The notes beneath the pieces were generated by a model. The model worked only from the letters and a program-made list of their open reading frames with translations, did no database searches and was not told the DNA's origin. Below, one piece after another: positions 35,494 to 45,709 of a stretch of DNA of 64,000 nucleotides; position 1 is the stretch's first letter; each line of letters begins with the position of its first letter. The position numbers and the translations under genes were made by a program. Origin of the DNA: Anabaena sp. UHCC 0187 (GTDB taxonomy: Bacteria; Cyanobacteriota; Cyanobacteriia; Cyanobacteriales; Nostocaceae); assembly GCF_009712035.1 (NCBI RefSeq), contig NZ_VILB01000001.1, positions 124,001 to 188,000 on the forward strand. Reading direction: 5' to 3'.

Positions 35494-37575
35494 CTATAAA
35501 CTAGAAGTTAAACCTATGCGGAAAGTAAACCCTGGGCTATAGATACGATTAACCCGCTCATATTGTTCACCTAAAATATTTTCCAAGTAAAAAGTTAGCC
35601 CCAAATTTTTGTTGACAGGAATCCGCCCACTAAAATCTAAATTAAAGAAAGACGGCGCGAAATCTGTACTGCGTTCTCCCGGTATATTTCTACTAAACAC
35701 AGAACGACGAGAACCACTATTATAAGTAGCATATAAATTAGCTTGCCACCCATGCTTTTGATATCCAATACCAGTTTGTAACAAAGAGTAGGGAATTAAT
35801 CCTAACTGTAATCCTTTTTCAGTTCCTGTTTTGATTTGGGCATCTGTATAAGTGTAGTTGAGAAAAGTTGACCATTCACGAGCAATTTTGAATTGTAAAG
35901 CTGCCTCTAAACCATTGGTATCTACTAAACCAATATTTTCCCATTTGCCATTAATAATTCCCAAGCGATTATCTAAACTATTACCAAAATAAGTGAATTG
36001 TCCTAATAGATTTTCCGACAATCTCACATCTATTCCCGCAGTCCAAGTTGAACCTGTTTCTGGTTTTAAATCGGGGTTAGGATTCCAATTATGAACCGTG
36101 TCAAAAACATATAATTGATCTAATCCAGGATTACGTTGCGCCCCCGCCCAACTTCCACGAAATGCAACTGCTGGATTAACTGCATAACGTAAGCCGACGC
36201 TGGGATTAAAATAACTCCCAAATTGGCTATCAAAGTTTTGTCTTACCCCTAAATCAGCTTGCAAAGCATCGCTAATTTTCCAAGTATTAACAGCAAATAA
36301 AGCTGTATTAAAGACGCTTCTATCTTCTTTTTCATTTTTAGGAATTAGGGCAGGATTTGTACTCAAAACATCGCCCATTAAATCGGTATTTTTTAAATCT
36401 AACCCCCAGCGCAATTGATTATTAGGGGTAATTTTCCATTCATGATCTATCCTAGCTTTAAATTGTTGTGTATCTAAAACTCCGGTTCGGTAAAATGTCG
36501 CTCCCGTTGGTCCATAGGTGCTAAAATAATCTCGATTGTAACCCAATGTGGTTGTTAAATTGGAATTTTCTCCCTTACCAAGTCGAGTTTTCCAAGATAA
36601 GCCAATATTCAAGCCATCATGATCTAATCGGTCTTTTTGGAGAGGGAACCCGAAATAAATTAAACCCCGACGGCTACTGAGTGCAGTCACATCCAAATTC
36701 ACAGAGTTTTTGGGATCTAAATCTATGCCGACACTACCAAAATAAGTGCTTGTAGCTGTATCTGCATTAGATAAATATCCTTGAGAATCACGATTTGCCG
36801 CACCAACAGGAACACGATAACGGTTATCTACAAAGAACCGTTCAAAGCTAAAGTTGTATTTAACTTTATTTGTTGCACCACCATAAGTTACCTGTTGATT
36901 ATTTAAATTTAATGAGCCAAATTCTGCACTAGCATTTAATTTGGGTTTACCATAACCTTCTTTTGTAATGATATTGACAACTCCTCCAAAGGCTGAAGAA
37001 CCATATAAGGAAGCAGCGGTACCGCTATATAATTCAACTCTTTCTATAGCCTCTATAGGAATACTATTTAAATCAGTTCCTCCATGATATGTACTGATAT
37101 TACTATTAATTGGTCTGCCATTAATCAGAAATACAGACTGATTAATTGAAGCTCCTCGATAGTATGTACCTGTGTGAATATCTGCACCATGTCCAACATC
37201 ATTGATAGCAAAACCGGGCATTCTTTTCAAAATATCAGCAACGCTGGTTGCACCCTGTTTTTGAATTTCTTCTTTTTCAATTACATAAGTGGGAGTGGAT
37301 TCAGGGAGAACGTCTTTTTCGCCAATGGTTTCTATGGAAATATCTGCATCATTTGTAGGAGTTAAATCTAGTTCTAACCTAGGTTCTGGCTTAACTTCAT
37401 TTGCTGCTGGTTGTTGAGTTAATAATCTAGCATTTGTGGCGGGTAATTCAATTTCACTTAAATTAGGAATATTTGAATTTACTACATTTTTATCTTCATT
37501 GTCAGCAGCAACGACAGGAAATACTACCAGCAAACTTAGTAAAGAAACTGGCAGGAAACAATAACTCTTATTCAT
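35494..37575 (-). CDS. TonB-dependent outer-membrane receptor
   Basis: 693 aa. The signal peptide ends near VVAAD. The plug domain (about 95-210) has TYVIEKEEIQKQGATSVADIL and VELYSGTAASLYGSSAFGGV; the remainder is a 22-strand barrel ending in FTFRIGLTSSL. A TonB-box-like region may lie around ISIETIGEK. It imports a siderophore, vitamin or other scarce ligand across the outer membrane. The tonB gene lies just upstream in the same direction (137-base gap), so the two may be induced together under iron limitation. Confidence 0.92.
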   Translation of the reverse strand: MNKSYCFLPVSLLSLLVVFPVVAADNEDKNVVNSNIPNLSEIELPATNARLLTQQPAANEVKPEPRLELDLTPTNDADISIETIGEKDVLPESTPTYVIEKEEIQKQGATSVADILKRMPGFAINDVGHGADIHTGTYYRGASINQSVFLINGRPINSNISTYHGGTDLNSIPIEAIERVELYSGTAASLYGSSAFGGVVNIITKEGYGKPKLNASAEFGSLNLNNQQVTYGGATNKVKYNFSFERFFVDNRYRVPVGAANRDSQGYLSNADTATSTYFGSVGIDLDPKNSVNLDVTALSSRRGLIYFGFPLQKDRLDHDGLNIGLSWKTRLGKGENSNLTTTLGYNRDYFSTYGPTGATFYRTGVLDTQQFKARIDHEWKITPNNQLRWGLDLKNTDLMGDVLSTNPALIPKNEKEDRSVFNTALFAVNTWKISDALQADLGVRQNFDSQFGSYFNPSVGLRYAVNPAVAFRGSWAGAQRNPGLDQLYVFDTVHNWNPNPDLKPETGSTWTAGIDVRLSENLLGQFTYFGNSLDNRLGIINGKWENIGLVDTNGLEAALQFKIAREWSTFLNYTYTDAQIKTGTEKGLQLGLIPYSLLQTGIGYQKHGWQANLYATYNSGSRRSVFSRNIPGERSTDFAPSFFNLDFSGRIPVNKNLGLTFYLENILGEQYERVNRIYSPGFTFRIGLTSSL

Positions 37576-37712
37576 CTTTCTGAACCCACACCCTGTAAAA
37601 ACAATTACTTATTGGAATTTTCTCTATGAATAGGAATTGTGTCAAAAGACAAGCTGTCATAGTTAAATTAATCACAGCTTAGATACCGGATTTCTTAAAG
37701 AAGTTCGGTATC

Positions 37713-39305
37713 TTATTTATCTGAATCACTACTAGACTCAGTAGGTAATGTAGTTACAGGTTCTGGTGCTGGATGTGCTTCTGCTGGTGGTGACTCAGAG
37801 GACTTTTGACGACGACGGAGAATTTCTTCTAAGCGTCTCCGACTTTTTTGAATTCTTTCGGCTCTACCTTCATCAACTTGATTATTTGTATCAGATTTGA
37901 CTGGCTGAGGTGAACGACGACGAGGTTTAGATTCTTCTGTTTCCTTTGGTTGCTCAGGTTCTACACGCTGACGACGTGGTGAAACTGGTTTACTTTCAGA
38001 AGGTGGAGATTCTTGTCTATATCTAGTGGTATTTTCGGGGATAACATCAGTAATAATAGAAGTTTTTTTCCGTTGAGGTGATTCTATGGGGGTGGAAGTA
38101 GAATCTGCTTTTTCAGGTTTGTTTTGTGGGGCTTCTCTTTCTTTTTTGATTTGCCGTTCTTGAAGTTTGCGGTGACGCTGTGATCCTTTGATAGCAAAGT
38201 TAACGGAGGCTCTTACCCCTTCTCTTCCTGCTTCTGTGGGTGTTAATTTCCACTCTTGAGCAGCTTTTTGAGCCGCTTCATCTAGTTCACTATCACCACT
38301 GGAACGGATTAACCGAACTCTCGTAACATTACCTCTATTGTCAGTATCAATAGCAACTTCTGGATTTCCTTCTGCACCCCGTCGTCTGGCTCTATCTGGG
38401 TACTTAATTTGACACTGGAGACAATCCGCACGATTCAATTTAGAACTATTTTCTATAGTCGGTTTGGGTGCGGTAGCTATTGGTGTATTTTCTGGTTTTG
38501 GTTTATTCCCAGTTTCATTCCCAACACCCGTACCTGTACCGTTTCCAACACCCGTACCTGTACCGTTTCCAATTTCATTATCAGCACCATTACCTGTACC
38601 TAAACTATTTCTCAAGTGATCGCCTAAATTGCCTAAAATATTTTTATTCTGCGGTAACTGTGTGGAAGCGGTGGAGTTGCTAGGGATATTGTTGGAACTA
38701 GCATTAGGTTGAGTTTCTGACTTTAATGGTGTGATTTTTGTGGGTTTTGTCTGCACTTGGGGTTGAGTAGACGCTAGGGTATTTGCGTTTTCATCTAATT
38801 TTTGTATTGGTTTGGTTTGTACTGGGGGTGGTGTTGTCGCAGGTTCAGGAGTTGTATTTTCTATTGGGTTAGTTTGTACTGGAGTTGTTTTTTTTGCAGG
38901 TTCAGAAATTGTTAGTATTTGGGATTGTTTACTAATCAGGTTATGAGTGATTTTTGCATGAGGCTGTTTGGCTATAGGTGCGACAGATGACTTTATTCTC
39001 CTGGGTGCTATTTCTGTGGGTATGGAAATTTCCCCACCGTTATTTCCACCACCACCAGAATTTATCTTTGGTAGGGATTTTATCTCTACTTGTGGTTGAA
39101 CTACTTCCTGGGGCATGGTTTCCAGAATTGTCACTTCAATAGGTTTTTCTGTAATTTCAGGTACTCTGAAGAAAAACCTGTTAATAGCTAAAGCTAGTAC
39201 CCCCATATGTAAGGCTACTGAACCAATGAAACTAAAGAATAGAAAAGTCTTTAATGCTTCAGCTTCTTTTTCGCGCTGTTCTATAGTGACACCAGACAAA
39301 CCCAT
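37713..39305 (-). CDS. tonB: TonB family energy transducer
   Basis: 530 aa. N-terminal TM helix about 24-45 (TFLFFSFIGSVALHMGVLAL), then a long Pro/Thr/Gln-rich periplasmic spacer with a Gly-rich repeat (GTGTGVGNGTGTGVGN, encoded by two 24-bp repeats at about 38528-38572). The TonB C-terminal domain (about 295-380) has YPDRARRRGAEGNPEVAIDT and VRLIRSSGDSELDEAA. Unusually for TonB, about 150 charged, Arg/Glu/Pro-rich residues follow that domain. No exbB or exbD is nearby. A candidate Fur site lies just upstream. Confidence 0.85.
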   Translation of the reverse strand: MGLSGVTIEQREKEAEALKTFLFFSFIGSVALHMGVLALAINRFFFRVPEITEKPIEVTILETMPQEVVQPQVEIKSLPKINSGGGGNNGGEISIPTEIAPRRIKSSVAPIAKQPHAKITHNLISKQSQILTISEPAKKTTPVQTNPIENTTPEPATTPPPVQTKPIQKLDENANTLASTQPQVQTKPTKITPLKSETQPNASSNNIPSNSTASTQLPQNKNILGNLGDHLRNSLGTGNGADNEIGNGTGTGVGNGTGTGVGNETGNKPKPENTPIATAPKPTIENSSKLNRADCLQCQIKYPDRARRRGAEGNPEVAIDTDNRGNVTRVRLIRSSGDSELDEAAQKAAQEWKLTPTEAGREGVRASVNFAIKGSQRHRKLQERQIKKEREAPQNKPEKADSTSTPIESPQRKKTSIITDVIPENTTRYRQESPPSESKPVSPRRQRVEPEQPKETEESKPRRRSPQPVKSDTNNQVDEGRAERIQKSRRRLEEILRRRQKSSESPPAEAHPAPEPVTTLPTESSSDSDK

Positions 39306-39548: not shown

Positions 39549-39887
39549 TTACTTTTTCCAGTCTTTATCAGCTTGTTCTAGTACATAAGCAGCTACGTCT
39601 TCAGCCTGAGCTAGTTTTAAACGACCTTGAAAAGCAGGCATAGCATTTTTACCATTAGTAACTTGGGCAATAATAGCTTCTGCTGAGTACATACCGTATT
39701 TTTCCAAATCTGCTTTTTTCAGGCTTTTGGCAGCATTAACTAAATTTCTACCGCCAGCATGACATGAAGCGCAATTAGCACTAAATATTTTAGCTCCACT
39801 GGCTGCGTCTGCGGCCAAAGCGGGACTACTGAAGGCAAAGGTGAAGATAGCTACGCTTAACAGTAATACTGAGATAATTCTTTTCAT
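39549..39887 (-). CDS. petJ: cytochrome c6 (soluble electron carrier)
   Basis: 112 aa precursor. The signal peptide ends SPALA before ADAASGAK, giving a mature protein of about 86 residues. Heme is bound by CASCH, and the sixth ligand is Met in KNAMPAFQG. It carries electrons from the cytochrome b6f complex to photosystem I or cytochrome oxidase in the thylakoid lumen, replacing plastocyanin when copper is low. It is a single gene. Confidence 0.95.
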
Positions 39888-40390
39888 CTGGTGTTCTCTC
39901 TACAACAATTGTGGAAACTGTGCAAATATCCTTTCTAATTCTGATTTGATCTGGTAGGATTAGTCAAACGACAGGCTGTAAAACTTGGCTTGAATACTCA
40001 ATTATTCAAGGTCAATTGATTGTGATACAAAGGATCGAGGAAAAATATAAAATTAATATGATCCAATCTTGTGGCATGGGCATACTATGGCTAACGCCAC
40101 GCTATGCTATCGACAAGCTCAGTACAAGTCCTGCCTGTCCTTGTATTATTGTTCAATAATAATATTAGCTAAAACACACAGATAATATTTTTTGTCAAGC
40201 GGTAAGTCCTGGTTAATCGTGAACACAAGTAAGGTTGTAAATTGATACTGTGTACGTAAATTATTATATAAATCTAAAGACGATTGTAATAAGCAAGCTA
40301 TTAATGTTTAAAGCTAATTCTTAATAAATATTTAGAAAATATTTAGAAAATAATGCAACAAGAAAGAACAAATATATGGTATAAATTTCT
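39888..40390. other. intergenic region upstream of the halogenase gene
   Basis: 503 bases without a gene. It includes a dispersed cyanobacterial repeat around 40082-40135 (GGCTAACGCCACGCTATGCT followed by ATCGACAAGCTCAG). The AT-rich last 200 bases probably hold the promoter of the halogenase operon. No riboswitch or clear operator recognised. Confidence 0.5.
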
Positions 40391-41188
40391 ATGTATATTT
40401 ACTCACATGGTGAAATGACAAATTTTACAAAAGTGAACGTCTGGGAAGAAGAAATTCAACAAAATATTGCTAATAATTTCTCCGAATCATCTTTAACATT
40501 TCTCTCTCACCAGTTTAAGCGTGATGGGTTTCTTAAAGTTCCTCAAATCATGCCTCTCCAGATCCGTCAAGAAATGAAACAAGAGGCTCTAAGATTGTTA
40601 GAATTGCACTCTGAACGACGTGATTTAAAACTAGCAACAACGGGAAATACTCCCAGAAATATGAGTGTAGTAACCAGCGAAAACATTGCTGAAAGCAGTG
40701 AATTTGTTAATACTATCTATAGATCCGAAGCACTGAAAAATATACTAGAAAAATTGGCTGGTGAACCTTTCTTAGCTTGTCCATCAAAAGATGAAGAATT
40801 TTTGATTACCAGACATGAAAAAAGCGGAGATACCCACGGTTGGCACTGGGGAGATTATCGTTATGCGCTAATTTGGATTTTAGAAACTCCACCTATCGAA
40901 CATGGTGGAATGTTGCAATGTGTTCCTCATACCAGTTGGGATAAAACTAATCCAAGAATTCATGAGTATCTGTGTGAGAATCCTATCAGCACCTATGGTT
41001 TTGTTACTAGTGACATTTACTTGTTGAAGTCAGATACAACTCTTCATCGAACAGTTCCCTTAAATCGTGATTCTACACGCATTATGCTCAATATGACTTG
41101 GGGATGTCTTGATGATCAGAAAAGAAATCTCAATGAGAATGATCGTTGGTGGGCAGAGAAAGAAGTAGTAGCTGGTAATTACAGCTAA
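40391..41188 (+). CDS. BesD-like Fe(II)/2-oxoglutarate amino-acid radical halogenase
   Basis: 265 aa. The metal-binding motif is H152-W-G154 followed by D155 and a second His, H219, in TTLHR. In hydroxylases of this fold the site is HxD/E; here the acid is Gly, as in radical halogenases where chloride takes its place. The His-His spacing of 67 equals that I recall for BesD (H137/H204). Further family blocks are RRDLKLATTGNTPRNMSV, ITRHEKSGDTHGWHWGDY, GGMLQCVPHTSW and R230 (2-oxoglutarate). BesD chlorinates free lysine at C4; the substrate here is inferred. A second possible start is Met9 (40415). A heme-oxygenase-like diiron oxidase gene follows after 127 bases. Confidence 0.8.
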   Translation: MYIYSHGEMTNFTKVNVWEEEIQQNIANNFSESSLTFLSHQFKRDGFLKVPQIMPLQIRQEMKQEALRLLELHSERRDLKLATTGNTPRNMSVVTSENIAESSEFVNTIYRSEALKNILEKLAGEPFLACPSKDEEFLITRHEKSGDTHGWHWGDYRYALIWILETPPIEHGGMLQCVPHTSWDKTNPRIHEYLCENPISTYGFVTSDIYLLKSDTTLHRTVPLNRDSTRIMLNMTWGCLDDQKRNLNENDRWWAEKEVVAGNYS

Positions 41189-41315
41189 ATTTTAGCTGTG
41201 TCAGCATGAGATTTGATATTTTTTAAACATCACCTGTCAAAATGTTAGAAAATTGCCAAAAAGCAATGCAAACATCTTCTCAAAAATGTAATCTATCTGT
41301 GTAGGAGAACCGAAA

Positions 41316-42059
41316 ATGACAGCTTTACAAGTACAAGAATTTGAGAAAATCCAAGATCCAAATGTTCGTCAACGCTTAGATGTTGATGGCCCAGAGATCA
41401 AAGACTATTTGAACGGGAAGATGGAGTATATTCTCAATCACCGCGCAGTCCAACATCCTCTGCTCAATTACTATCGCAAAAACGCATTTACTAAAGAACA
41501 AGAAAAGAAATTCTACCTGGAAACTTGGTATTACTTTAAAAACGAACCTTTCTATATTACGAGTATGGCAGTAAATACTCGTGATTATAAAGTATTGAAG
41601 GAAATTATCCTCAATGTTTATGATGAAGTGGCTGGAAAAGTAACCCATGAAACTTTGTTTCGTGAACAACTGAATGCTATGGGGATTACTGATGAAGAAA
41701 TTGCTAATCATCAATGTTTGCCTAGCACTACAGCTATTAATAAAGGTGCAGAAAAACTTTATTGTGAACCCCCAATTGAAAGAAACTTAGGGGCGTTCTA
41801 TGCTGATGAAACTATGTCAGCAGTATTGTCAACTCAATTCAATGATGCCTTGCTGAATCAAGGATATGACAAGAACGTGAGAAAGCATTGGATAATGCAC
41901 GTAAATGTAGAAATTAGCCATAGCAATAATGCTTTTAATGCGATCGCACCCTATTTGGTTAATCAAGAGGGACGAGACTTATTTGAAGAAGGCATCAATA
42001 CATATCTACAACTATTGGAAACCTATTGGGACGGCGTTGATGCCATTGTCAGAGGATAA
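41316..42059 (+). CDS. heme-oxygenase-like diiron oxidase (HDO), BesC/UndA/CADD type
   Basis: 247 aa, start supported by AGGAG at 41303-41307. All six expected metal ligands are visible: E104-x6-H111, E165, H195-x3-E199-x2-H202. The spacing closely follows CADD as I recall it (E81/H88, E142, H174/D178/H181). HDOs use O2 for C-C cleavage, N-oxygenation or decarboxylative desaturation. BesC cleaves 4-chlorolysine to 4-chloroallylglycine, formaldehyde and ammonia, and the gene directly upstream is a BesD-like halogenase. Alternative activities are SznF-like N-oxygenation of a guanidine or UndA-like alkene formation. It is annotated in many databases as TenA/PqqC-like. Confidence 0.75.
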   Translation: MTALQVQEFEKIQDPNVRQRLDVDGPEIKDYLNGKMEYILNHRAVQHPLLNYYRKNAFTKEQEKKFYLETWYYFKNEPFYITSMAVNTRDYKVLKEIILNVYDEVAGKVTHETLFREQLNAMGITDEEIANHQCLPSTTAINKGAEKLYCEPPIERNLGAFYADETMSAVLSTQFNDALLNQGYDKNVRKHWIMHVNVEISHSNNAFNAIAPYLVNQEGRDLFEEGINTYLQLLETYWDGVDAIVRG

Positions 42060-42063
42060 AAAA

Positions 42064-42250
42064 CTAGTACCGCACGGCGTAAATAAACCAACCATTCTTA
42101 ATCGCCAAAAAGCTTGCTGAATATTACTTTTGACTTTTGACTTTTGACTTCCGCCTTGCGATACTAGTACCGCAGTGTGGAATTGATAATTAAAAATTAA
42201 GAAAGCAGATTCTACAAGCTTTTGGTGAAATTTTTAATAGTTGGTTAACG
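42064..42250. mobile_element. MITE-like repeat (CTAGTACCGCA family), rearranged copy
   Basis: CTAGTACCGCACGGCGTAA (42064-42082) begins an inverted right end, and CTAGTACCGCAGTGTGGAAT (42164 on) begins a left end. The latter continues as in the copy at 51133-51269 (AAGCAGATT, AAGCTTTT). Between them lie three TTTTGAC heptamers (42128-42148). No transposase is encoded. It separates the HDO gene from the exporter gene. Confidence 0.6.
42128..42148 (+). repeat. STRR, (TTTTGAC)x3
   Basis: Three tandem heptamers between the two half-elements of the MITE-like repeat. Confidence 0.75.
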
Positions 42251-42299
42251 AAGGAAATAAATTTTTTAAACTAATGCAGGAGAGATAATTTTGGAAAAA

Positions 42300-43253
42300 T
42301 TAATTTTTGCTTACATCACCTGATTCAGCAATGTAAATACCCAATAAAACAACGAAAAAAGCGATCCAATTCACGAAACTTAAATATTCTTGAAAAACTA
42401 TCCATGCCAGAATAGCTGCCATAATTGGTTGTAGTAACATGAATAGAGAAACAAAGCCAGAAGAAAATTGTTTTAGTTGATAGATAAAAATAACAGAAGC
42501 AATAACTTGACAGAGAATACTTAAAGAAAATATGTTTAACCAACCTAATAGTGAAGTTGGGAAAACTTGATTTTCAAATATGAGAACAAAAGGTAACAAG
42601 AGGAGACTTGAAAGGACACAATACCATAGTGAAATAGTCAACGAAGAAAATTGAGATCGGAGTTTTTCTATAGTTAAAAAATAACCTGCATAAACCACAG
42701 CAGATAATAAAGCCCAAGCATCACCTATCAGGTGATTATGAGAAACGTGTAAATCTTGAATTCCAATGGATATTGCTCCACCTACAGCAACAATCATGCC
42801 AATGATAAATCTTCGATCAAACTTTTGACCTAAGAATAACCAGCCACCAAGCACAGCAAAAACTGATGGCAAGTTATGAAGAAGATTAGAATTAGCAACG
42901 GTAGTTTGAGTTAAAGATAAAGCCCAAGTAACTAAACATATTTCTCCCAACATTACCCCAATTAGGAATATAGCTAAAGTGCTAAAAGTAATTGGTTCTG
43001 AATCTTTAGACAATGATGAATTACTATATTGACTTTCCCAGATTATAACTATTCCTTGCCAAAATAGGAATATTACGGCAGCTATTAATTCCCGATTAAA
43101 AACCGTAGCATTAGGACCTAGTTCGTCTTCACTCAATCTTGTAAATATAGGATCTAAGGATACGAGTAATACTGCTATCAATAACAAAACTAAATCCAAA
43201 ATTCCTGGCTTTAATGCTACTTTATCTACTGGCTTCTCAACAACATTAGTCAT
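42300..43253 (-). CDS. DMT/EamA-type exporter
   Basis: 317 aa with about ten TM helices in two EamA repeats (LDLVLLLIAVLLVSLDPIFT at the start; GDAWALLSAVVYAGYFLTIE opening the second). Such drug/metabolite transporters export amino acids, their analogues or secondary metabolites. It is divergent from the amidinotransferase gene across a shared 109-base promoter region, and next to the halogenase/HDO pair, so it is a good candidate for export of the product. The substrate is unproven. Confidence 0.85.
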   Translation of the reverse strand: MTNVVEKPVDKVALKPGILDLVLLLIAVLLVSLDPIFTRLSEDELGPNATVFNRELIAAVIFLFWQGIVIIWESQYSNSSLSKDSEPITFSTLAIFLIGVMLGEICLVTWALSLTQTTVANSNLLHNLPSVFAVLGGWLFLGQKFDRRFIIGMIVAVGGAISIGIQDLHVSHNHLIGDAWALLSAVVYAGYFLTIEKLRSQFSSLTISLWYCVLSSLLLLPFVLIFENQVFPTSLLGWLNIFSLSILCQVIASVIFIYQLKQFSSGFVSLFMLLQPIMAAILAWIVFQEYLSFVNWIAFFVVLLGIYIAESGDVSKN

Positions 43254-43362
43254 TATAAAAATTGTATATCTTGATTTCGTGTTTCATAATACCATAATAT
43301 ATGTGAGCAATTCACTTGCATAGCTTCCAGAAATTATACATTGTTCTTAACTTGACATAGAT

Positions 43363-44457
43363 ATGGCATTTAATCCGCAATCAACCGCACCAACAACACC
43401 CGTTGTCAATTCATTTAACGAATGGGATCTTTTAGAAGAAGTAATTGTTGGCCGATTGGATGGTGCAGTTATACCACCTTGGCATATTACAGTTAAAGCA
43501 ACAATGCCACAGCGTTATTGGGATGTGTTCCGTACCTATGGTGGTAAATTATTTCCAGAAGAGTTAATTAAAGCTGGAGAAAAAGAACTAGAAGAACTTA
43601 CCCACATTTTAGAAGCAGAAGGTGTCAAAGTTCGCCGTCCCGACGCGGTAAATTATACTGTTCCTTATGGAACTCCAGACTGGCAAAGTCCTAGTGGTCT
43701 TTACGGAGCAATGCCCAGAGATGTGATGATCGTCATTGGGGATAAACTAATTGAAGCTCCCATGCCTTGGCGGTCTAGATATTTTGAAATTAATGCCTAT
43801 CGTTCACTCATCAAAGAGTATTTTCATGCTGGCGCACAATGGCTTCCCGCACCTAAGCCTGAACTACGCGATGAACTATATAACTATCAATATGAAGAAG
43901 CAGACAAAGATGCACTATTTAACTCTTCACTAACTGAATTTGAACCAGTATTTGACGCGGCTGAATTTAGTAGATGTGGTAGAGATATCTTTGTTCAACA
44001 AAGTCAAGTAACCAATCAATTTGGGATAGAATGGATGCGGAGATGTTTAGGAGATGAGTACAGAATTCATGAACTCAAATTCAAAGATCAATCTGCCATG
44101 CACATTGATGCCACCTTTGTTCCTCTCGCTCCTGGTAAGCTTTTAATCCATCCTTACAAACTTGATAAACTTCCCGATATGTTCCAAAGTTGGGATGTAA
44201 TCCAAGTTAAAGAATTCGCTCTTCCTGACGATCATCCCCTGTATATGAGTAGTAAGGGAGTAGGGATGAATGTTTTATCAATTGATGAAAATAGAGTGAT
44301 CGTGGAAAGGCAAGATGAACCCATGATTAAACTATTAAAAAATTGGGGATTTACACCAATTCCTTGTAATTTCCGGAACTTTAATACCTTTGGTGGTTCT
44401 TTCCATTGTGCAACTTTAGATATTAGAAGAAAAGGCACACTGCAATCTTATTTTTAG
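43363..44457 (+). CDS. arginine:X amidinotransferase
   Basis: 364 aa of the glycine amidinotransferase (AGAT) superfamily. Catalytic residues are visible: D208 in CGRDIFVQQSQV, H247 in AMHIDATFVPL and C349 in GGSFHCATLDIRRKG. It moves the amidino group of arginine to an amine. Relatives are CyrA (glycine, cylindrospermopsin), SxtG (saxitoxin) and AmtA (lysine to homoarginine, phaseolotoxin). No PKS, NRPS or sxtA gene is present here, so it belongs to a different pathway. The neighbours (halogenase, HDO, exporter) suggest a small guanidino or homoarginine-type product; the acceptor is unknown. Confidence 0.85.
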   Translation: MAFNPQSTAPTTPVVNSFNEWDLLEEVIVGRLDGAVIPPWHITVKATMPQRYWDVFRTYGGKLFPEELIKAGEKELEELTHILEAEGVKVRRPDAVNYTVPYGTPDWQSPSGLYGAMPRDVMIVIGDKLIEAPMPWRSRYFEINAYRSLIKEYFHAGAQWLPAPKPELRDELYNYQYEEADKDALFNSSLTEFEPVFDAAEFSRCGRDIFVQQSQVTNQFGIEWMRRCLGDEYRIHELKFKDQSAMHIDATFVPLAPGKLLIHPYKLDKLPDMFQSWDVIQVKEFALPDDHPLYMSSKGVGMNVLSIDENRVIVERQDEPMIKLLKNWGFTPIPCNFRNFNTFGGSFHCATLDIRRKGTLQSYF

Positions 44458-44496
44458 GATTTAAAAAAGCAGGTTTTTCCCCCCTAAGTAATGTAG

Positions 44497-44513
44497 GGTG
44501 GGCAATGCCCACC
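44497..44513 (+). terminator. hairpin after amidinotransferase gene
   Basis: GGTGGG-CAATG-CCCACC, 40 bases after the amidinotransferase stop. The GGGTGGGCAATGCCCACC repeat is common between cyanobacterial genes; it may work as a terminator though no T-run follows. Confidence 0.45.
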
Positions 44514-44565
44514 AATATTTCAAAAATCAAATATTAGTGCTATCAAGTCATAGGAACAGCAAAAA

Positions 44566-45033
44566 ATGGAACAGGAGTTATTAATTCGTAGGGGTGAATT
44601 GCAGGATTTAGATATTTTAGTTGAGTTTAATCAAGCTTTAATATATGAAACAGAAAAGAAACAACTCCCCGTCAATGTTATAACTGGGGGTGTAGAAACA
44701 TTATTAAAAACGCCGAGTTTGGGATTTTATTTATTAGCTGAAAAGAATCATCAGGTTGTTGGTTCATTAATGATCACCACGGAATGGAGCGACTGGCGTA
44801 ATGGTTTATATTGGTGGATACAAAGTGTATATGTTCACCAAGATTTTCGTCGGCAAGGAATTTTTAGAACCCTTTATAAATTTGTGAAACAACAGGCAGA
44901 AAATCCAGGAAATGGGCTGAAAGTCTGCGGATTTAGACTTTATGTTGAGCGTGAAAATACAGTCGCTCAAAAGACTTATCAAGCTCTAGGAATGAAGGAA
45001 AGCTATTATCATATTTATGAAGAATTAAAGTAA
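44566..45033 (+). CDS. GNAT family N-acetyltransferase
   Basis: 155 aa. Starts MEQELLIRRGELQDLDILVE. The acetyl-CoA-binding motif A is VYVHQDFRRQGIFRTLYKFV, and motif B contains GFRLYVERENTVAQKTYQAL. The substrate is unknown. It is in the same direction as the amidinotransferase, 109 bases after it, but a hairpin lies between. It could modify or detoxify a product of the neighbouring genes, or be unrelated. Confidence 0.82.
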   Translation: MEQELLIRRGELQDLDILVEFNQALIYETEKKQLPVNVITGGVETLLKTPSLGFYLLAEKNHQVVGSLMITTEWSDWRNGLYWWIQSVYVHQDFRRQGIFRTLYKFVKQQAENPGNGLKVCGFRLYVERENTVAQKTYQALGMKESYYHIYEELK

Positions 45034-45051
45034 AGATTAAAGAAAGATTAA

Positions 45052-45084
45052 AGATCCCCGACTTCTTAGAGAAATCGGGGATCT
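45052..45084. terminator. bidirectional hairpin between convergent GNAT genes
   Basis: AGATCCCCGA and TCGGGGATCT form a 10-bp stem between two convergent genes. A related hairpin (GACTTCTTTGAGAAGTC) is at 55631-55647, so it is also a dispersed repeat. Confidence 0.6.
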
Positions 45085-45096
45085 GATTGATTATTA

Positions 45097-45588
45097 TCAA
45101 TTATTTGCCAACTTAATTAAATTCTCTTGATTAAGACGACAAATACGCCAATCTTCTATCATCTCTGCTCCCATGCGATAATAAAATTCTTGGGCTGATA
45201 CATTCCAATCTAAAACATTCCATTCTAAACGTCCACAATCCCTTTCTACAGCTATTTGAGCTACCTTAATTAAAAGTGCTTTGCCAATACCTTGCTGACG
45301 ATATTCTGGGATAATATAGATATCTTCTAAATAAATTCCAGGCTTGGTCAAATAGCTAGAATAATTATGGAAGAACATGGCAAAACCTACTGCCTGTCCA
45401 CCAATTTCTGCTAATATTGCCTCTATATATTTTGGTGAGCCAAATAAATGCTGGTGGAGTTTTTCAACGTCGCCAGTCACAGTATGAGATAATTTTTCGT
45501 ATTCTGCCAATCCCTGAACCAATTCAAATAATACAGCAGAATCACTAGGTTCAACAGCACGGATAATTAAATTAGTATTAGCAGTCAT
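45097..45588 (-). CDS. GNAT N-acetyltransferase, SSAT2/thialysine-acetyltransferase-like
   Basis: 163 aa. The segments FFHNYSSYLTKPGIYLEDIY, RQQGIGKALL and GRLEWNVLDWN followed by AQEFYYRMGAE are the hallmark of the diamine/thialysine acetyltransferase (SSAT) group. Human SSAT2 acetylates thialysine, a lysine analogue. Such genes are widespread in cyanobacteria. Its place near a possible chlorolysine pathway is therefore suggestive only. Confidence 0.85.
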   Translation of the reverse strand: MTANTNLIIRAVEPSDSAVLFELVQGLAEYEKLSHTVTGDVEKLHQHLFGSPKYIEAILAEIGGQAVGFAMFFHNYSSYLTKPGIYLEDIYIIPEYRQQGIGKALLIKVAQIAVERDCGRLEWNVLDWNVSAQEFYYRMGAEMIEDWRICRLNQENLIKLANN

Positions 45589-45653
45589 CAGTTATTAATC
45601 TATAGTCCACAGTCCATAGTTTATACCGCAGTGGATGATTTTTTTCAAAACTA

Positions 45654-45709
45654 ACAACTGACAACTGACAACTGACAACTGACAACTGACAACTGACAAC
45701 TAACAACTG
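45654..45709 (+). repeat. STRR, eight ACAACTG heptamers
   Basis: Eight tandem copies (one with A for G at the last base) just downstream of the sigma factor stop. This is a typical STRR of heterocystous cyanobacteria, not a CRISPR: there are no spacers. Confidence 0.9.

Follow-up and report, generated by a model that had tools for sequence, protein, structure and literature searches.

In the Streptomyces bes pathway, which leads to beta-ethynylserine, a BesD-like halogenase gene lies next to the gene for BesC, a heme-oxygenase-like diiron oxidase (HDO) that splits 4-chlorolysine at C4-C5 into 4-chloroallylglycine, ammonia, and formaldehyde (PMC13108848). The same two neighbors, in the same order and with the same predicted first two steps, are encoded at 40391..44457 of a 64,000-nucleotide stretch of Anabaena sp. 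UHCC 0187 (assembly GCF_009712035.1, contig NZ_VILB01000001.1, positions 124,001-188,000, forward strand), hereafter the window, within which all positions are numbered. The cyanobacterial loci differ from bes in that they include genes for an amidinotransferase (ADT) and an EamA exporter, and in that no BesB-like enzyme was found in the window or in the flanks of the related loci. This gene set is real, conserved, and mobile. We consider it probable that it encodes a horizontally moving small-molecule pathway in which lysine would be converted through 4-chlorolysine to 4-chloroallylglycine, followed by amidination and export.

Parts of the set recall other described systems. The halogenase belongs to the same Pfam family, HalD, as the free amino-acid halogenases HalB and HalD (PDB 7u6i and 7u6h), but it is paired with an HDO and falls on the BesD side of the tree, and chlorination at C4 instead of C5 is predicted for it. 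The mangotoxin cluster mboA-F likewise combines an HDO with an ADT-family protein (MboE) in one small-molecule cluster; however, MboE is an arginine deiminase that works on a peptide, together with ATP-grasp ligases, and no BesD-like halogenase is mentioned in the text portions covered (PMC13185094). In the Creative Commons-licensed PMC literature, which was covered in part so that novelty is not proven, we found no cyanobacterial pathway of this kind and no paper combining BesD, BesC, and cyanobacteria. The main text of a genome paper on Anabaena, Dolichospermum, and Aphanizomenon that includes strain UHCC 0204 contains no reference to a halogenase, an amidinotransferase, or BesD.

Enzyme families and active sites

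Four open reading frames (ORFs) were confirmed at the positions and in the families given by an earlier reading of this DNA made without database searches (the sequence-only reading), and their family assignment is far beyond chance. The first, at 40391..41188 on the plus strand, encodes a BesD-like iron- and 2-oxoglutarate-dependent (Fe/2OG) radical halogenase of 265 residues (Pfam HalD, 4.2e-92; best PDB match BesD 6nie, 3.6e-82), whose true start is probably at 40415, as its orthologues start at the second ATG. It is followed on the same strand by the BesC-like HDO gene at 41316..42059 (best PDB match BesC 7twa, 1e-72). An EamA/DMT-family transporter, the probable exporter of the product, is encoded on the minus strand at 42300..43253 (Pfam EamA, 8.4e-34; no PDB match at 0.001), and an AGAT-family ADT on the plus strand at 43363..44457 (human AGAT in the PDB, 6.3e-122). 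The halogenase scored 331.9 bits with the NCBIfam model for BesD (equivalog cut-off 450) and the HDO 287.1 bits with that for BesC (equivalog cut-off 500); because both scores are below the cut-offs, the proteins were classed as BesD-like and BesC-like and not as BesD and BesC.

Among 84,980 species genomes scanned, 199 relatives of the halogenase were found, and the best 80 of the 199 were kept as loci. When 13 BesD positions were compared across BesD, the window enzyme, and these 80 loci, the window halogenase was identical to BesD at all 13, including the lysine contacts R77, E123, H137, D143, D239, and W241 (PDB numbering). In simulations of BesD, the amine of lysine is held by D239, D143, and E123 and its carboxylate by R77, H137, and W241 (PMC13244439). 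The full set of 13 is present at 34 of the 80 loci, the remainder differing mostly at the last four positions. The HxG motif of the window enzyme is H152-W153-G154 and its second His is H219; among 82 aligned rows, 76 have HWG and six have HWD. The HWD rows, and the existence of hydroxylases in the same fold family (PDB 7jsd), would be compatible with a first enzyme that is a hydroxylase or inactive, in which case nothing would be chlorinated. Against this, the window enzyme and five cyanobacterial orthologues carry HWG in intact genes, which agrees with the HxG-type Fe/2OG enzyme originally proposed and leaves the hydroxylase explanation highly improbable. Six Legionella genomes (L101, L102, L105, L106, L109, and L149) also have halogenase-like genes that combine HWG with the complete lysine cage, with no HDO nearby.

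HDO-less Pseudomonas enzymes (HalA/HalB) chlorinate C5. HalB, for example, is a lysine 5-chlorinase (PMC10187165). In a halogenase tree of 81 rows, from which the near-copy L081 was left out, the six cyanobacterial rows form one clade (SH-aLRT 98) that adjoins an HDO-paired gene from Acidobacteriota (SH-aLRT 96). The enclosing group, whose SH-aLRT of 84 is not strong, consists of 21 rows, 19 of them HDO-paired, and the Pseudomonas/Paraburkholderia group without an HDO falls outside it. Since the window halogenase groups with HDO-paired BesD enzymes and the HDO-less Pseudomonas group lies outside, C4 is the better guess, and the window halogenase is predicted to chlorinate lysine at C4 rather than C5. 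Assignment of C4 from the NCBIfam BesD score was tried and dropped because the score fails to discriminate; for comparison, the enzyme of a Streptomyces HDO-BesB locus (L095) scored 464 and that of an HDO-less Pseudomonas locus (L087) 324.9.

The HDO retains all six metal ligands attributed to it by the sequence-only reading (E104, H111, E165, H195, E199, and H202, aligned with BesC 7twa), where the residues that serve as ligands are those that we take from the CADD/BesC motif spacing. The Cys-His-Asp set of the ADT is likewise in place, as D198, H247, and C349. The 300-flap, which shapes how enzymes of the AGAT family bind the acceptor, reads DPNPM in AGAT, DMHPM in AmtA, and DIFPS in CyrA (PMC4887976). 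The window ADT shares its fold family and D/H/C triad with AGAT, CyrA, SxtG, and AmtA, but its flap, DQSAM, matches neither the glycine enzymes (AGAT and CyrA) nor the lysine enzyme AmtA. This flap is found in five of five distinct pathway orthologues and is absent from the 19 other cyanobacterial ADTs in the alignment. The Met at AGAT position 302 is retained; as a Met302 to Ser change in AmtA abolished transfer (PMC4887976), its retention favors a transferase. When two flap residues of AmtA were switched to those of AGAT, specificity was unchanged (PMC4887976), and the flap by itself therefore does not name the acceptor of the window enzyme. The Kamptonema genome encodes a second ADT (L166, G581:C144), 37-40% identical to that of the window, with a CyrA-like flap (DLFPS) and unrelated to the island.

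Linkage, co-occurrence, and horizontal transfer

The distribution of the genes was examined in an even sample of 388 genomes from the class, in 16 of the genus, and in 217 of the family. The halogenase is rare in the class, where the window's own genome was accompanied by matches of 43% and 23% identity, and in the genus it was found in the window genome and one other (G394). The family-wide query was the HDO, which was found in the window genome (G000), G394, G431 (83%), and G419 (77%), with one more match at 24%; the halogenase itself, which was not the query there, was seen beside the HDO in these four carriers and directly precedes it in G394, G431, and G419 as in the window. Relatives of the ADT at 1e-40 were present in 37 of the 217 genomes, yet identities of 82-100% were confined to the four genomes with HDO and halogenase, the next being 57%. 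Relatives of the exporter at 1e-30 were present in 100 of the 217, with identities of 76-100% in the same four genomes only and the next at 53%. For the ADT, the exporter, and the acetyltransferase discussed below, only part of the ranked matches was taken on as loci.

Cyanobacterial orthologues of the halogenase with 70-100% identity are found in Anabaena sp. UHCC 0204, Cuspidothrix issatschenkoi CHARLIE-1, Brasilonema sp. UFV-L1, Kamptonema sp. UHCC 0994, a Microcoleaceae metagenome-assembled genome (MAG), and Oscillatoria sp. HE19RPO 122. The HDO gene adjoins the halogenase gene in all six of these loci of at least 70% (neighbors were counted from tblastn searches). In both Kamptonema (87%) and Oscillatoria (80%) an ADT is encoded on the halogenase-HDO contig. 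The Kamptonema contig carries genes for a methyltransferase, an ABC importer, the exporter (72%), the halogenase, the HDO, a ureohydrolase, and the ADT, and in Oscillatoria the halogenase, HDO, methyltransferase, and ADT genes are successive and in one direction. Within the examined flanks, an ADT was found at L081 and L086 only, that of Kamptonema lying just past its flank. Conserved linkage of the four genes in related genomes, whose absence the sequence-only reading had named as a refutation, is upheld by the co-occurrence among the 217 genomes and by the Kamptonema and Oscillatoria contigs, and the four genes are a genuine linked set.

Relative to sister genomes, the window carries a five-gene insertion at 40056..45136, which comprises the four genes and a GNAT acetyltransferase gene at 44566..45033 (plus strand) that the sequence-only reading had not noticed and that has a weaker link to the pathway. 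The site lies between a cytochrome-c-like gene and a second GNAT gene (GNAT2). These two flanking genes are at most about 0.25 kb apart in 11 of 14 genomes of the genus without the halogenase, representing the empty site; they are about 2.7 kb apart in G178 and in different places in G136 and G389. By direct alignment, L080 matches the window up to 40055 and L079 up to 40022, and both resume at 45137. A search for a target-site duplication gave a 9-base match only (39998 and 45097), which is likely due to chance.

A larger block, 39772..45680 (5.9 kb), is nearly identical to Anabaena sp. UHCC 0204 in pairwise alignment, the differences being one substitution at 40101 and two indels, of 3 bp (40155) and 7 bp (42126-42132). 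Outside this block, 500-bp bins are 84-93% identical between the two strains, and the edge bin is 97% identical. Both copies are in contigs with strain-specific flanks, which makes cross-contamination unlikely, and the near-identical block is most naturally read as a unit that was recently transferred, with flanking recombination. Among more distant carriers, Brasilonema and Kamptonema are 86-88% identical in the halogenase, HDO, and ADT, whereas Brasilonema and the window are 77-81% identical. NCBI places Brasilonema and Kamptonema in different families, and that Brasilonema is nevertheless closer to Kamptonema than to the window points to joint transfer. In Kamptonema the set sits beside a sigma-factor gene and priA; these neighbors recur in the window and at the ADT locus of Cuspidothrix, which may reflect either an inherited position or coincidence.

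Predicted route and competing explanations

The proposed route builds on the families, catalytic residues, linkage, co-occurrence, and recent transfer described above. By homology, the halogenase would chlorinate free L-lysine at C4, and the HDO would cut 4-chlorolysine between C4 and C5 to give 4-chloroallylglycine, formaldehyde, and ammonia; these first two steps are well predicted. Amidination and export are plausible as the later ones. With arginine as donor, the ADT may amidinate an amine of 4-chloroallylglycine, in the simplest case the alpha-amine, yielding an N-amidino (guanidino) chlorovinyl amino acid, which the EamA protein may then carry out of the cell. Possible roles of the GNAT are protection of the cell and tailoring of the product.

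The sequence-only reading had suggested a small exported amino acid that is chlorinated, terminally unsaturated, and/or guanidino-bearing, derived for example from lysine or homoarginine. A chlorinated and terminally unsaturated product derived from lysine stands as the best reading, because the halogenase falls in the HDO-paired BesD clade and keeps the lysine cage; the guanidino part is putative, and the homoarginine form was given up. For homoarginine to be the substrate, the ADT would act first, converting lysine to homoarginine on which the halogenase and HDO would then act, and a lysine ADT, AmtA, does exist in a related toxin pathway (PMC4887976). However, the halogenase retains every BesD contact to the lysine ammonium group, the flap of the window ADT is not AmtA's DMHPM, and cleavage at C4-C5 by the HDO would discard the guanidine, so we regard this order as very unlikely.

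Additional genes accompany the set in other lineages. An agmatinase-like ureohydrolase (TIGR01230, 186 bits, above the cut-off of 174) is encoded in Cuspidothrix, Brasilonema, and Kamptonema with 77-81% mutual identity, and among the 217 family genomes it was found in Cuspidothrix and Brasilonema only, the third match being 32%. An S-adenosylmethionine-dependent methyltransferase is shared by Cuspidothrix, Kamptonema, and Oscillatoria (61-76%); in the 217 genomes it was found in Cuspidothrix only, with the second match at 43%. Cuspidothrix and Kamptonema also share a fusion of an amino-acid-type ABC binding protein and permease, and a SnoaL-like protein. In these lineages the ureohydrolase and methyltransferase may act further on the guanidino compound. 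An AGAT-type enzyme with a methyltransferase recalls creatine synthesis, and an ADT with a ureohydrolase suggests that an amidino group is added and then removed; we offer both as ideas only.

In a competing explanation, the end product would be free 4-chloroallylglycine, or an alkyne made through an unlinked BesB-like enzyme; the ADT would mask it only to protect the producer, and in some lineages the ureohydrolase would unmask it. Cuspidothrix, Brasilonema, and Kamptonema do have both an amidino-adding and an agmatinase-type amidino-removing enzyme alongside the pair, but no such ureohydrolase was found in the genome of the window at 1e-30 and its action on the guanidino compound is only putative, and we judge masking to be distinctly unlikely. 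Returning to a product that leaves the cell amidinated, a broader and more tentative proposal is that these loci represent a new class of exported cyanobacterial antimetabolites, N-amidinated 4-chlorovinyl amino acids made from lysine and arginine. Amidination would here replace the gamma-glutamylation and alkyne steps of bes, and certain lineages might methylate the amidino group or later remove it with the ureohydrolase of the cluster.

Several observations weigh against the proposed route. The BesD score of the window halogenase is about equal to that of the HDO-less Pseudomonas enzyme and so cannot settle C4 versus C5 chlorination. The search for an ADT was negative in the 3.0-Mb Microcoleaceae MAG, whose halogenase-HDO pair is on a 3.7-kb contig, and in the examined flanks of the 74 loci that are not orthologous. 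The assemblies of Cuspidothrix and Brasilonema place the ADT and exporter genes on a different contig from the halogenase and HDO genes. The genome of the window holds no close orthologue of the ureohydrolase (searched at 1e-30) or the methyltransferase, and these enzymes are therefore not essential to the core. Lastly, the GNAT is not exclusive to the pathway, with relatives in 21 of the 217 genomes, several of them 61-72% identical where no close HDO was found. The separate contigs and the GNAT found without the pathway would fit two independent modules that share only a neighborhood, the halogenase and HDO making (chloro)allylglycine and the ADT, exporter, and GNAT serving another guanidino metabolite. 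Close orthologues of the ADT and exporter are nevertheless limited to the four halogenase- and HDO-carrying genomes of the 217, and the ADT shares a contig with the pair in Kamptonema and Oscillatoria; we thus hold two modules to be unlikely and retain a single route. In Cuspidothrix, too, a GNAT gene (76%) is next to the ADT gene; the copy in Brasilonema (63%) is similar to those of other members of its genus. As a core gene it was set aside because of the 61-72% relatives, and it is treated as an island gene of uncertain role.

Propargylglycine and allylglycine inhibit amino-acid enzymes. The present set is a defined and recently transferred group of five genes whose carriers are bloom-type and benthic cyanobacteria and whose expected product, a chlorinated unsaturated amino acid, is a compound of this kind. 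As the halogenase and HDO are predicted to accept free amino acids, the route could be reconstituted in E. coli directly, and the DQSAM flap peculiar to this ADT may bring a new acceptor specificity. The gene set also predicts which culture-collection strains are worth screening for chlorine isotope patterns.

Other halogenase-HDO pairs and neighboring features

An HDO is encoded near the halogenase at 22 of the 80 loci. A BesB-like pyridoxal phosphate enzyme (Cys_Met_Meta_PP) is near 10 of these 22 pairs, those of nine of ten actinobacterial loci and the Acidobacteriota locus. No BesB-like gene was found near the six cyanobacterial loci L081-L086 (flanks, 1e-6; the flanks of L085 and L086 are short and absence there is weak), the gammaproteobacterial L091, or four Marinobacter/Pseudomonas loci. 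The 64-kb window also gave no match to one BesB-like query at 1e-5, in line with the lack of a BesB homologue reported initially. An EamA transporter follows the pair in the four Marinobacter/Pseudomonas loci (L137, L138, L153, and L155), and a LysE translocator is encoded near the pair in L091; these independent transporters support the view that such pairs repeatedly go together with the export of free amino acids. The four Marinobacter/Pseudomonas pairs are of another substrate type, L137 additionally having semialdehyde dehydrogenase and GNAT genes, and probably belong to another uncharacterized route. In the Acidobacteriota MAG (L090, 8255-9970 and 10934-16387), the halogenase, HDO, and BesB-like genes lie beside an ORF of 1817 residues that resembles a nonribosomal peptide synthetase in its first residues, the only part judged.

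Large, mostly secreted-looking proteins of two families, F5 and F9, are encoded around the pathway genes in Brasilonema and Kamptonema (L083 3029-6852, L084 16304-21981, and L078 1017-2537); the members tried had no Pfam match, and no PDB match was obtained at 0.01. Within the window, the gap between the HDO and exporter genes contains a dispersed intergenic repeat (42062..42249) that is not thought to be part of the mechanism. Many copies of 70-92% identity occur across the genome on both strands, and the 7-bp indel relative to UHCC 0204 falls inside the repeat. A promoter scan was uninformative (16 found versus 19.9 expected); terminator-like signals numbered 7 versus 2.5 expected, and one strong hairpin of 15 pairs is present at 45052-45084 on the minus strand. 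To the left of the island, at 35494-39305, are a TonB-dependent-receptor-like ORF and a TonB-like ORF, the second of which is swapped for an unrelated ORF in Anabaena UHCC 0204.

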